A stretch of DNA of 64,000 nt from Haloglomus litoreum (GTDB lineage Archaea > Halobacteriota > Halobacteria > Halobacteriales > Haloarculaceae): assembly GCF_029338515.1 (NCBI RefSeq), contig NZ_CP119988.1:1116001-1180000 (forward strand). Reading direction: 5' to 3'. The notes under the pieces were generated by a model, which was not told the origin of the DNA, did no database searches, and worked only from the letters and a program-made list of their open reading frames with translations. Shown piece after piece: positions 29,250 to 33,435 of the stretch (position 1 is its first letter; every line of letters begins with the position of its first letter). Both the position numbers and the translations under genes were made by a program.

Positions 29250-30329
29250 ATGAACCGGCGGCAGGCCCTCCGTCAGTTCCACCGGTCGCGGACGACCGAC
29301 GAGCGGTGGCTCCCGGGCGAGTCGGGGAGCGAGGGGGTCGGCCGACGGACGTGGCTGAAACGTCTGGGCGCGGCCGTCGTGGGGGTCGGGGCCGCGAAGG
29401 CCCTCGACAACGTCGTCGTCGGCTACGGTGTCGTCACGGGGACGAACCTCACCGAGCAGTCGATGGCGTCGCTCGTCTCGGCGCCCTTCGCCTGGAACGA
29501 CCGGTGGGTCGAGGTTCCGGGCGGTCGCATCGAACTGTCCAACGGCGGGGAGCGGCTGTCGCTCCGGGGCGCCGGGAGCCGGTCGTTCATCGTCGGGGAG
29601 ACGACGCCCGAGCGTGCGCGCGAGGCCGCGGCGGCGGTCGGCGTCGACCCGGACGCCGCCGAGCAGGCCGTGGCCGACATCCGGGCGTTCCGCGAGGGCG
29701 CGGTGCGGTACGAGCCGCTGCCGTTCGACGAGTTCGGGGCGGCCGCGGCCGAGGGGACGGCACGTCCGGCGACGACGGGCCTGATGCGCGCCATCCTCCG
29801 GGAGGTGGACCCGGCGGCGGTCGCCGCGTTCGTCGGCGTCCACCCCTCCGAGCCCGTGGCGCTGGCCCCGGCGCTGGCCGAGGCGTTCCGCGAGCACACC
29901 TACTACGACCTGCCGCGGTACGCGGCCGGCTCCGTCGAGGACAACGTCATCATGGGTGCGGCGGACCTGCGCCGGTACTTCGAGTCGCCCACCTCGTTCG
30001 AGGCGCTGGCGAGCGGCGAGACGAGCGGGATGTTCTGCTACGAGTTCACCTTCCGGTCGGTGCAGGCGTTCCACGCCCAGCCCGCCCTCGACCAGTCCCC
30101 GCCGGTCGCCGCGTGCAAGGTGTTCGACGAGCGCCACAAGCACGTCTACACCGCGCTGGCGACCGTGACGCGCCGGGACGGCGACCTCGTCGTCCCGATG
30201 ACGTTCGTCGATTACACCCACACGACGCTGTACGACGATCTCAACCTGCGTGGCGTCATGGGCGAGGGGCTGAACGGCTACACCAGCCGCCACCGCGCGA
30301 CGGAGTTGCGCTGGTGGAGCAGCGGCTGA
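29250..30329 (+). CDS. Tat-type exported protein of unknown function beside archaeosortases
   Basis: A 359-residue protein. After a 30-residue polar leader, VGRRTWLKRLGAAVVGVGAA resembles a Tat signal with a twin Arg and a hydrophobic core. The rest is mixed alpha/beta with GVHPSEPVALAPALAEAF, FTFRSVQAFHAQPALD and HKHVYTALATVTRRDG. No known catalytic motif is apparent. The C-terminus is polar, with no PGF-CTERM-like tripartite signal, so it is not itself a recognisable sortase substrate. A TATA-like GATACTTA is centred 28 nt upstream. The archaeosortase genes follow on the same strand 75 bp downstream, but have their own promoters. Confidence 0.65.
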   Translation: MNRRQALRQFHRSRTTDERWLPGESGSEGVGRRTWLKRLGAAVVGVGAAKALDNVVVGYGVVTGTNLTEQSMASLVSAPFAWNDRWVEVPGGRIELSNGGERLSLRGAGSRSFIVGETTPERAREAAAAVGVDPDAAEQAVADIRAFREGAVRYEPLPFDEFGAAAAEGTARPATTGLMRAILREVDPAAVAAFVGVHPSEPVALAPALAEAFREHTYYDLPRYAAGSVEDNVIMGAADLRRYFESPTSFEALASGETSGMFCYEFTFRSVQAFHAQPALDQSPPVAACKVFDERHKHVYTALATVTRRDGDLVVPMTFVDYTHTTLYDDLNLRGVMGEGLNGYTSRHRATELRWWSSG

Positions 30330-30404: not shown

Positions 30405-31361
30405 GTGTCGCAGGCGCTGACCGACGCGCTGGCCTGGGTGTCCATCGCCGCGTTCGTCGTGGCGGTGCTCGCGGAGCTGCGCGACCGCCGGACGGCGAGT
30501 CTCGCCGCCGCGGGCGCGTGGGCCCTGTTCGCGGTGTTCTGGCTGGCGCTCATTCCGCAGTTCCTGCTCGTCGAGAAGAGCGCCATCGAAGGCGTTCTCA
30601 GTGCGCTCGCCGTCCCTGCCTCGCTGTCGGCGGCGTACCTCCTCTACCGGGGTCGCGAGTCCCTGCTCGTCCTCACCCGCGGGGTCGCGGTGATGGGGCT
30701 CATCTACCTGCCCGCGACGACCATCCCGTGGATCTACGGGTCGCTCATCGAGACGACGACGGCGCAGACCAACGTGCTCATCGAGGCCGCTGGCTACGAC
30801 CCCACTGTCGCGACGGGCGAGGAGGGCCTCCGCAACACGTTCGTCTTCAACACGGACGGGAACACGTACGAGACGTTCATCGTCCTCGCCTGTACGGGGC
30901 TGGGAAGCATGGCCATCTTCGCGGGGCTCATCGCCGCCGTCCGTGCGCCGCTCCGCCGGAAACTGGCCGCCTTCGCCATCAGCGTCCCGGTCATCTGGGT
31001 GCTCAACCTCGTCCGGAACGCGTTCATCGCGGTCGCGTTCGGCAAGCAGTGGTTCCAGGTCGCGGTCCCGCAGGTGTCGGCCCTGTTCGGCATCCAGCCG
31101 GACGAGGTGGGGCTGGTGTCGTTCTACCTCGCCGACAAGGTCATCTCCCAGTCCGCCTCCGTGGTCGCGCTCGTGCTCATCACGTACCCCGTCGTCCGGG
31201 CGCTCCCGGAACTCGCGGGCGTGCTGGACGACGCGCTCTACGTCGTCACCTACCGCGAGTTCCACACCGCGGAGGCGCTCGGGCTGGAGGCCGACTCCGA
31301 CCGGACGACGGCGGCCCCCCCGGGGGACTCCGAGACCGTCGGCCACTCCGACGACGACTGA
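30405..31361 (+). CDS. Archaeosortase A paralogue with altered third active-site residue
   Basis: A 318-residue polytopic membrane protein of the exosortase/archaeosortase family, whose members cleave C-terminal PGF-type signals and link the protein to lipid. The Cys nucleophile is C163 in LACTGLGSMAIFAGL. The first Arg is R204 in LNLVRNAFI, 41 residues later, as in characterised ArtA. The third position, which should be Arg, is K245 in FYLADKVISQ, and there is a two-residue insertion before it. About eight membrane helices are seen. The C-terminal tail is acidic. It lies 91 bp before a second, canonical copy. It may be active with different specificity, or impaired. Confidence 0.88.
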   Translation: MSQALTDALAWVSIAAFVVAVLAELRDRRTASLAAAGAWALFAVFWLALIPQFLLVEKSAIEGVLSALAVPASLSAAYLLYRGRESLLVLTRGVAVMGLIYLPATTIPWIYGSLIETTTAQTNVLIEAAGYDPTVATGEEGLRNTFVFNTDGNTYETFIVLACTGLGSMAIFAGLIAAVRAPLRRKLAAFAISVPVIWVLNLVRNAFIAVAFGKQWFQVAVPQVSALFGIQPDEVGLVSFYLADKVISQSASVVALVLITYPVVRALPELAGVLDDALYVVTYREFHTAEALGLEADSDRTTAAPPGDSETVGHSDDD

Positions 31362-31423
31362 CGATGCCCGGGCCGTCGCACCGTCTCGCCTCATGTACCC
31401 CCGGTGTCCTCCCGGGCAAGAGC

Positions 31424-31427
31424 TATA
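31424..31427 (+). promoter_or_regulatory. TATA box of second archaeosortase gene
   Basis: TATA (in AGCTATAGG) is centred about 27 nt before the ATG at 31453. This favours that ATG over the in-frame GTG at 31429, which would lie only about 4 nt from the TATA. Confidence 0.5.
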
Positions 31428-31452
31428 GGTGGAATTTCCCAACGGTGGAGCG

Positions 31453-32511
31453 ATGAGTGGACCGGCCGCGGCGCTCCTGTCGGGACTCGACGCGCTGGGG
31501 GCGCTGTCGGACCCGCTCGCGTGGCTGGTCGTGGCGGCCTTCGTCGGCGGCAGCCTTCTCGAGCTCCGGGCCCGCGAGCCCGCGCGCTACGTGCTGGTGG
31601 GGGCGTGGCTCCTGTTCGCGCTGTTCTGGTTCACGCTGGTCCACCACTTCGCGTTCGAGCAGAAGTCGCTCATCGAGGGGATCGGCAGCCTCGCCGCCGT
31701 CCCCATCTCCGTCTACGTCGGCTACCTCCTCCTCCAGGGCCGCGACTCGCTGTTCGTCCTCTCGCGGGCCGTCGCCGGGATGGGGGCCGTCTTCATGCCG
31801 TTCGAGGCGCTCGCCGTCCTCCGGCGGCCGCTCATCGAGATCGTCACGTCACAGACGGAGTTCCTGATGGCGCTGCTCGGCCAGGACCCGACGGTGCTGA
31901 CGTGGTCGGAGGCGACCGAACGCATCGCCGCCCAGTACGACTGGTCGGCTGCCCGCGCCCGGAGCTTCAGCGACGCGCGGGGCTACTACGACTACCGGAA
32001 CACCTTCTTCTGGCTCCACGACGGTCAGTACCCCATCACGTACACCATCCGGCTGGCGTGCACGGGGCTGGGGAGCATGGCCATCTTCGCGGGGCTCATC
32101 GTCGCCGTCCGGGCGCCGCTCCGCCGGAAGGCCCGCGCGTTCGCCGTCTCGGTCCCCGTCATCTACGCGCTGAACCTCGTCCGCAACGTCTTCATCGGCC
32201 TCGCGTTCGGCCAGCAGCGGATGCAGTGGTTCGTCCCGCAGGTGATGGACCTGTTCGGGACCACCGACCCGCGGATGGTGTCGTACTTCCTGGCCGACCG
32301 TGTGCTCGCCCAGTCGCTGTCGGTCGTGGCGCTGGTCGCCGTCACCTACCTCGTCGTCCGCGAGCTACCGGAGGTGCTGACCGTCGTCGAGGACGTGCTG
32401 TACGTCCTCACGGGGAGCGAGTACGACCTCGGCGCGGCGCTGGATGTCGAGGGGACGAGCGACGACCCCGAGCCGGAGCCGGGGGCGGTCCGTGCCGACG
32501 GCGGGGACTGA
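31453..32511 (+). CDS. artA: Archaeosortase A
   Basis: A 352-residue polytopic membrane transpeptidase that processes PGF-CTERM proteins such as the S-layer glycoprotein. The catalytic residues C203 (LACTGLGSM), R244 (LNLVRNVFI) and R283 (FLADRVLAQ) are spaced 41 and 39, identical to C173, R214 and R253 of Haloferax volcanii ArtA. A long outside loop near residues 145-190 (AQYDWSAARARSF) is unlike the first copy. The C-terminal tail is acidic with a SEYDLGAALD segment. It has its own promoter. dph5 is convergent, its stop one base beyond this stop. Confidence 0.93.
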   Translation: MSGPAAALLSGLDALGALSDPLAWLVVAAFVGGSLLELRAREPARYVLVGAWLLFALFWFTLVHHFAFEQKSLIEGIGSLAAVPISVYVGYLLLQGRDSLFVLSRAVAGMGAVFMPFEALAVLRRPLIEIVTSQTEFLMALLGQDPTVLTWSEATERIAAQYDWSAARARSFSDARGYYDYRNTFFWLHDGQYPITYTIRLACTGLGSMAIFAGLIVAVRAPLRRKARAFAVSVPVIYALNLVRNVFIGLAFGQQRMQWFVPQVMDLFGTTDPRMVSYFLADRVLAQSLSVVALVAVTYLVVRELPEVLTVVEDVLYVLTGSEYDLGAALDVEGTSDDPEPEPGAVRADGGD

Positions 32512-32512
32512 C

Positions 32513-33310
32513 TCAGGCCAGTCGCTCGTCGGCCAGTTCGACGGGCGCGCCCGCCAGCTCCACCAGTGCGTCCCGTTCGATGTAGTGCAACTCGCCCGGT
32601 AGCACGAGCAGGTGGAGCGGGTCGCCGAAGTCCCGCTCCGCGAGCGCCGACAGGCGGTCGGCCGCGACGACCGGGTCGGGGCTGCCGGCCCGTGCGACGA
32701 CGACGCCGAGGTCGTCGCCCCGGCCCGCCTCGGTCAGCAACCCGGCGGCGGTGCTCGCGGCCATGTACTCGTCCTCCTCGACGAGTTCGTGGTCGACCTT
32801 GATGTCGAGGAAGCAGAGCGTGTGGAGCCCGCGCTCGCGGTTCGCGTCGACGGTGTCGAGCACGCTCGCGGGCACGTCGTCGCCGCCGTGCGCGTACGGG
32901 AACGGGAGCGTCGTCGCCTTCCCGAAACGGTAGTTCTGCAGGCCAGTCAGCGAGGCCGCGGCCGCTGCCGCCGTGGTACCGTGGACGACGCGCGTCTCGA
33001 TGCCGCGCTCGTGGGCACGCAGGCGCAGGTCGACGTGCGTGGTGGCGATCATCGTGTCGCCCGCGGTGCAGAAGACGGCGTCCCCCGACTCGGCGGCGTC
33101 GAGGATGGGCTCGGGGTCCTGTTCGACGCCCTCACGGTCGCGGACCTCGACCGCGATATCGTGTTCGGCTTCGAGGTCGGCGAGTGTCGCGCCGGCGAGC
33201 TTGCTGGTGTAGAACTCGGCGAAGACACGGTCCGCCGCGCGGAGGGCGTCGCGGCCCTCGACGGTGACCGAGCGTTCGTCCCAGAGGCCGAGGCCGACGA
33301 AGGTGAGCAT
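32513..33310 (-). CDS. dph5: Diphthine synthase
   Basis: A 265-residue tetrapyrrole-methylase-fold enzyme that trimethylates the modified His of elongation factor 2 on the way to diphthamide. MLTFVGLGLWDERSVTVEG and FAEFYTSKLA are the N-terminal signatures. GDAVFCTAGDTMIATTHVDL forms the AdoMet site, followed by VVHGTTAAAAAASLTGLQNY. The length is typical of archaeal Dph5. I chose the ATG at 33310, since MLTFVGLGL is the conserved N-terminus. Confidence 0.96.
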   Translation of the reverse strand: MLTFVGLGLWDERSVTVEGRDALRAADRVFAEFYTSKLAGATLADLEAEHDIAVEVRDREGVEQDPEPILDAAESGDAVFCTAGDTMIATTHVDLRLRAHERGIETRVVHGTTAAAAAASLTGLQNYRFGKATTLPFPYAHGGDDVPASVLDTVDANRERGLHTLCFLDIKVDHELVEEDEYMAASTAAGLLTEAGRGDDLGVVVARAGSPDPVVAADRLSALAERDFGDPLHLLVLPGELHYIERDALVELAGAPVELADERLA

Positions 33311-33435
33311 ACGCTGAGTCGGTTGGTCGCGGGGGTAAGCGTGACGGAGCGGGCCATCACTGGTACGGCGACACAGGGTGAAATGGGGGTTTGAGATTCC
33401 GGGACCGTATTCCATGGACGGCCCGTCCGTGGGGT

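Follow-up and report, generated by a model that had tools for sequence, protein, structure and literature searches.

Two archaeosortase A genes of old clades lie in tandem in Haloglomus and may serve two classes of PGF-CTERM tail

The window analyzed here is a stretch of 64,000 nucleotides of Haloglomus litoreum DNA, and positions refer to it unless another locus is named. Two full-length archaeosortase A (ArtA) genes lie in it head to tail. The upstream gene, p1 (30405-31361, +), encodes a protein of 318 amino acids that matches the NCBIfam model TIGR04125 with 310.8 bits, and the downstream gene, p2 (31453-32511, +), encodes 352 amino acids and matches the same model with 330.2 bits, both far above the cut-off of 75 bits. 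The p2 frame starts with a GTG at 31429, and the ATG at 31453 is the preferred start, from which the 352 residues are numbered. The coordinates and the TIGR04125 scores (311 and 330 bits) confirm the first-pass annotation of this DNA, which had described two ArtA-type genes in tandem. Upon pairwise alignment, the two proteins were 49% identical.

The critical residues of Haloferax volcanii ArtA are Cys173, Arg214, and Arg253 according to a review (PMC9263693), which agrees with the trio named in the first-pass annotation. In p2, the equivalent residues are the nucleophile Cys203 (codon TGC, 32059-32061, +), Arg244 (CGC, 32182-32184, +), and, at the third catalytic position, Arg283 (CGT, 32299-32301, +). 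In p1, they are the nucleophile Cys163 (TGT, 30891-30893, +), Arg204 (CGG, 31014-31016, +), and Lys245 (AAG, 31137-31139, +). The catalytic Cys and the first Arg are therefore in register in both proteins, and the third catalytic Arg is present in p2 and replaced by Lys in p1. Read directly from the codons, the catalytic spacing is 41/41 residues in p1 and 41/39 residues in p2, and the alignment places a two-residue insertion in p1 in the loop QPDEVG (31095-31112, +), directly before the helix that carries Lys245. Residues, spacings, and insertion were all as claimed from the first reading. In the AlphaFold2 model of p1 (pLDDT 89.4, pTM 0.83), Lys245 is near the start of a long predicted helix (237-266), and the insertion is in the preceding loop, between this helix and helix 221-228. 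A search by sequence found no solved-structure relative.

Upstream of the pair, a conserved neighbour (29250-30329, +) encodes a protein of 359 amino acids with a twin-arginine-like N-terminus, which has no match in NCBIfam or Pfam; homologues with 37-79% identity stand beside artA in other genomes. On the other side lies a dph5-like methylase gene (32513-33415, -; PF00590, TP_methylase), a marker of the conserved artA locus. When the artA loci of 14 relatives were compared, artA and dph5 were found together in all 14, irrespective of the artA copy number, and most of these loci also had a gene resembling 29250-30329. Genes of the latter type adjoin artA in many genera, and one looks duplicated in genome G317 (L093 4101-5117 and 6806-7711). 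The protein encoded at 29250-30329 may be part of the sorting system.

ArtA was present in 288 of the 293 genomes of the order, only 13 of which had more than one match, so the earlier statement that ArtA is normally single copy was right. A search of the source Haloglomus genome (one contig, 4,695,480 bases) returned exactly two ArtA genes, p1 and p2. Within the family of Haloglomus (f1, Haloarculaceae), tandem ArtA genes were found in 4/4 Haloglomus, both Halorarius, genome G377, two genomes of genus g11, and eleven Natronomonas. The genomes of genus g10 (G250 and G187, for example) have a single ArtA, whose third catalytic residue is Lys.

In a tree of 99 ArtA proteins, p2 fell in clade B (support 100/98), together with the second copies of Halorarius and G377 (95/92). 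p1 grouped with the first copy of G377 (100/98) and then with the g10 proteins and the first Halorarius copies (91/84), and the broader clade A, which adds the Natronomonas copy with Arg and the proteins of families f7, f17, f6, and f14, had moderate support (90/80). As p1 is in clade A and p2 in clade B, on opposite sides of the tree, a recent tandem duplication was rejected as the origin of the pair. Judged by this tree, p1 and p2 come from two old ArtA clades; Haloglomus keeps both at the ancestral artA locus. A different arrangement was observed in genome G304 (genus g3), which has a clade-B ArtA and an unlinked ArtA (L111 485-1501, -) grouping with family f12 (100/99). No PGF-CTERM tail was found within 20 kb around this extra gene, which was possibly acquired by transfer.

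We surveyed the third catalytic position in 156 aligned ArtA proteins. The catalytic Cys and the first Arg were invariant (156/156), and the third position was Arg in 124 proteins, Lys in 11, Gly in 8, Asn in 6, Tyr in 3, Ser in 2, and His in 1, with one gap. The 11 Lys-type proteins (four from Haloglomus, one from G377, and six from g10) all belong to one subclade, and all of them keep the Cys, the Arg, and the Asp preceding the Lys. The view that this Lys is unique or harmful was thus rejected, as it is a lineage trait (11/156). In the alignment, no conserved basic residue besides Lys245 tells the Lys-type proteins apart from those of the Arg class, and the takeover of the role by another Arg in p1 was rejected on this ground. 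The Lys type is the sole ArtA in all six g10 genomes sampled, and the three g10 genomes that were checked had 9-17 PGF-CTERM matches each. As these genomes keep PGF-CTERM proteins, a third-position Lys is compatible with a working ArtA. The divergence that the first-pass annotation had read from this residue is thereby largely undone, since Lys occurs in ArtA that serve as the only copy. The best explanation is that Lys in place of Arg is a variant which this lineage tolerates and which leaves the enzyme active.

Because the third Arg is not universal in the ArtA family, Lys does not exclude p1 from it. Lineages without a basic third residue had an invariant His nearby, the sole exception being a Tyr group of three highly diverged proteins. 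This His was one residue before the third position in 7/7 proteins of f7 and genome G023, and five residues before it in 10/10 second copies of Natronomonas; each of the two was found in 0/124 proteins of the Arg class. Natronomonas genomes often have a second ArtA, with Glu-Gly or Glu-Ser in place of Asp-Arg (L042 1432-2397, -; L080, L087, L109, and others). In the single-copy ArtA of f7 (L161, L157, L033, L151, L152, and L164), His-Asn replaces Asp-Arg, and in the ArtA of G023 (L147) the site is His-His, so that the published critical Arg is absent from both. The Tyr proteins (L054, L055, and L056; 132-150 bits) are ArtA-like with Glu-Tyr at this site and might represent a sortase type of their own.

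A large surface protein, usually encoded next to artA, combines signal, surface, and PGF-CTERM domains. Since its clear match to NF041335 is below the equivalog cut-off of this model, the label S-layer-type is given by domain and position. In Haloglomus, the gene (L205) lies some 43 kb upstream of the window and encodes a Gln-PGF tail in 4/4 species. Across genomes, the residue before PGF in the S-layer-type tail was Gln in 20 of the 24 that bear a clade-A copy, counting the Gln-AGF tail of G377, and in 0 of the 43 others; an earlier form of this table gave 3e-13 in a Fisher test. The four non-Gln genomes were G332, which has clade A only and yet a Thr-PGF tail, G325 (Gly), and two f3 genomes, in which the clade-A-like copy is elsewhere and the S-layer-type protein adjoins the clade-B copy and ends in Ala-PGF or Ser-PGF, where Gly was predicted. 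In genomes without clade A, the residue was Gly in all with clade B only, Thr in 6/6 of f4, and Ile in 3/3 of f12 and G124. Within g11, the S-layer tail is Gln-PGF in genomes with an additional clade-A copy and Gly-PGF in those without it. Only five of the held-out loci had a tail close enough to be assessed; Gln versus not-Gln was right in all five and the exact residue in three. To allow for relatedness, we used a dph5 tree of 46 genomes, in which the locus decided the coding of the two f3 genomes, so that both counted as without clade A. The tree held only three to four independent contrasts, none of them contrary, with which the test cannot reach 0.05, so the association between clade and tail loses its significance after correction for relatedness.

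With E values of up to 10 admitted, TIGR04126 matched the source genome 43 times. Nineteen tails were read, 10 of them Gln-PGF, 8 Gly-PGF, and 1 Leu-PGF; the first reading had proposed a search for two PGF-CTERM tail classes. Tails were counted with a genome-wide DNA pattern, using the reversed pattern as the control, in 142 genomes of the family and 45 others, and each genome was given its ArtA class on the basis of sequenced copies or of its genus. The median excesses over the control for Gln-PGF and Gly-PGF were +3.5 and -1 with clade A only (28 genomes), 0 and +10 with clade B only (56 genomes), +10 and +12 with both clades (9 genomes), and +3 and +6 in Natronomonas with a second copy (11 genomes), respectively. 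Gln-PGF tails were essentially missing where clade B was the only one, as were Gly-PGF tails where clade A was. With relatedness ignored, clade-A-bearing genomes differed from B-only genomes in Gln-PGF (P = 3e-7), and genomes bearing clade B or a second copy differed from A-only genomes in Gly-PGF (P = 1e-12). In Natronomonas, Gly-PGF tails occur in the genomes that have a second ArtA and are missing from those that lack it (P = 4e-4, uncorrected for relatedness). The Gln-PGF signal was weak in family f7, and G377 had few tails of either class. Halorarius G325 has both clades, but its Gln-PGF tails are gone, and its clade-A copy (L077 1447-2376, -) is on a long branch (0.86 vs. 0.27); its sister G324 has kept both. 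The clade-A copy of G325 appears to be a natural example of a copy that is losing its role.

We propose, with a probability of roughly 0.56, that the two ArtA of old clades in Haloglomus run two parallel sorting channels, split by Gln-PGF and Gly-PGF tails. Both enzymes would be active, presumably by the cysteine transpeptidase chemistry that has been put forward for ArtA, and each would prefer its own tail type. The clade-A enzyme p1, with its Lys, would cut and anchor proteins with a Gln-Pro-Gly-Phe tail, including the S-layer-type glycoprotein, and the clade-B enzyme p2 would cut and anchor those with a Gly-Pro-Gly-Phe tail. The Lys copy, as far as tail sequences can tell, probably serves the S-layer, and p1 would be, if anything, the main enzyme of the pair, because the Haloglomus S-layer-type protein bears the clade-A tail type. 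The idea of a specialised sortase with other substrates, also put forward in the first-pass annotation, thus gains support in the form of a correlation, as clade A goes with Gln-PGF, clade B mostly with Gly-PGF, and the Haloglomus genome has both. The association between clade and tail is a correlation, and either enzyme could accept both tails. A bolder version, which we put forward only tentatively, is that the residue before PGF is a channel code that the ArtA clades recognize, with Gln for clade A, Gly for clade B, Thr for the f4 type (probably Haloferacaceae), and Ile for another, and that the two Haloglomus channels are mutually exclusive, the Lys enzyme being dedicated to the S-layer.

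It may be instead that p1 and p2 are functionally redundant and that the residue before PGF is lineage baggage, which goes with the artA clade and its neighbours by descent or transfer and confers no specificity. The S-layer-type gene often adjoins artA and would travel along, the independent contrasts are few, and PGF, the motif known from H. volcanii (PMC9263693), is common to both tail classes. We nevertheless find redundancy doubtful, as the Gln/Gly pattern spans many unlinked genes per genome, and as both copies are kept with full catalytic residues in 4/4 Haloglomus, although redundant genes should tend to decay.

The two enzymes might also share their substrates and differ in the attached lipid, the partner, or the growth condition. 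ArtA substrates of H. volcanii are lipid-anchored, with PssA and PssD involved (PMC9263693), and the acceptor is not readable from sequence. Such a difference is, however, an improbable explanation, since by itself it gives no account of why the tail class tracks the presence of a clade. Considering that Lys replaces a catalytic Arg, and that Arg253 is critical in H. volcanii ArtA (PMC9263693), p1 could be a weakened or regulatory partner of p2. This proposal, which the first-pass annotation had made in the words "catalytically weakened partner", was not supported and appears very improbable to us: six g10 genomes with PGF-CTERM proteins have this Lys in their sole ArtA, the Cys, the Arg, and the Asp before Lys are conserved throughout the Lys class, and other single-copy lineages have neither Arg nor Lys at the third position.

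To our knowledge, PGF-CTERM has so far been treated as one signal, with one ArtA per cell. By title or abstract, we found no prior description of two ArtA clades or of tail classes in the open-access literature. If two clades read two versions of the tail, the haloarchaeal surface sorting code would be finer than PGF alone, the residue before PGF would be a predictable and testable determinant of specificity, and Haloglomus would offer a natural system for studying archaeosortase specificity within one cell. In addition, the third Arg published as critical is replaceable in nature: Lys can stand in for it, or it can be lost while a His appears nearby. This bears directly on the catalytic mechanism of ArtA.

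Among known systems, ArtA of H. volcanii (HVO_0915) with PGF-CTERM (TIGR04125/TIGR04126) is like the Haloglomus pair in family, in the catalytic Cys and Arg, and in the kind of substrate (S-layer glycoprotein, PGF-CTERM), whereas Haloglomus has two ArtA of two clades, Lys in one of them, and two tail classes per genome. The Lys-type ArtA of g10 resembles p1 in its Lys, its membership of clade A, the Gln-PGF tails, and a locus beside dph5, but g10 is without a clade-B copy, essentially without Gly-PGF tails, and mostly without the two-residue insertion. Halorarius (G324 and G325), G377, and Natronomonas have two ArtA at the same locus, as Haloglomus does; unlike Haloglomus, Halorarius has Arg in both copies, and the second Natronomonas copy is of another lineage, with Glu-Gly or Glu-Ser for Asp-Arg. 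Archaeosortases B and H and other enzymes of the exosortase family (TIGR04144, NF041736) have the core domain in common with p1 and p2, which match these models weakly (22-25 bits) and far below their cut-offs (150 and 200), and those families use other sorting signals.
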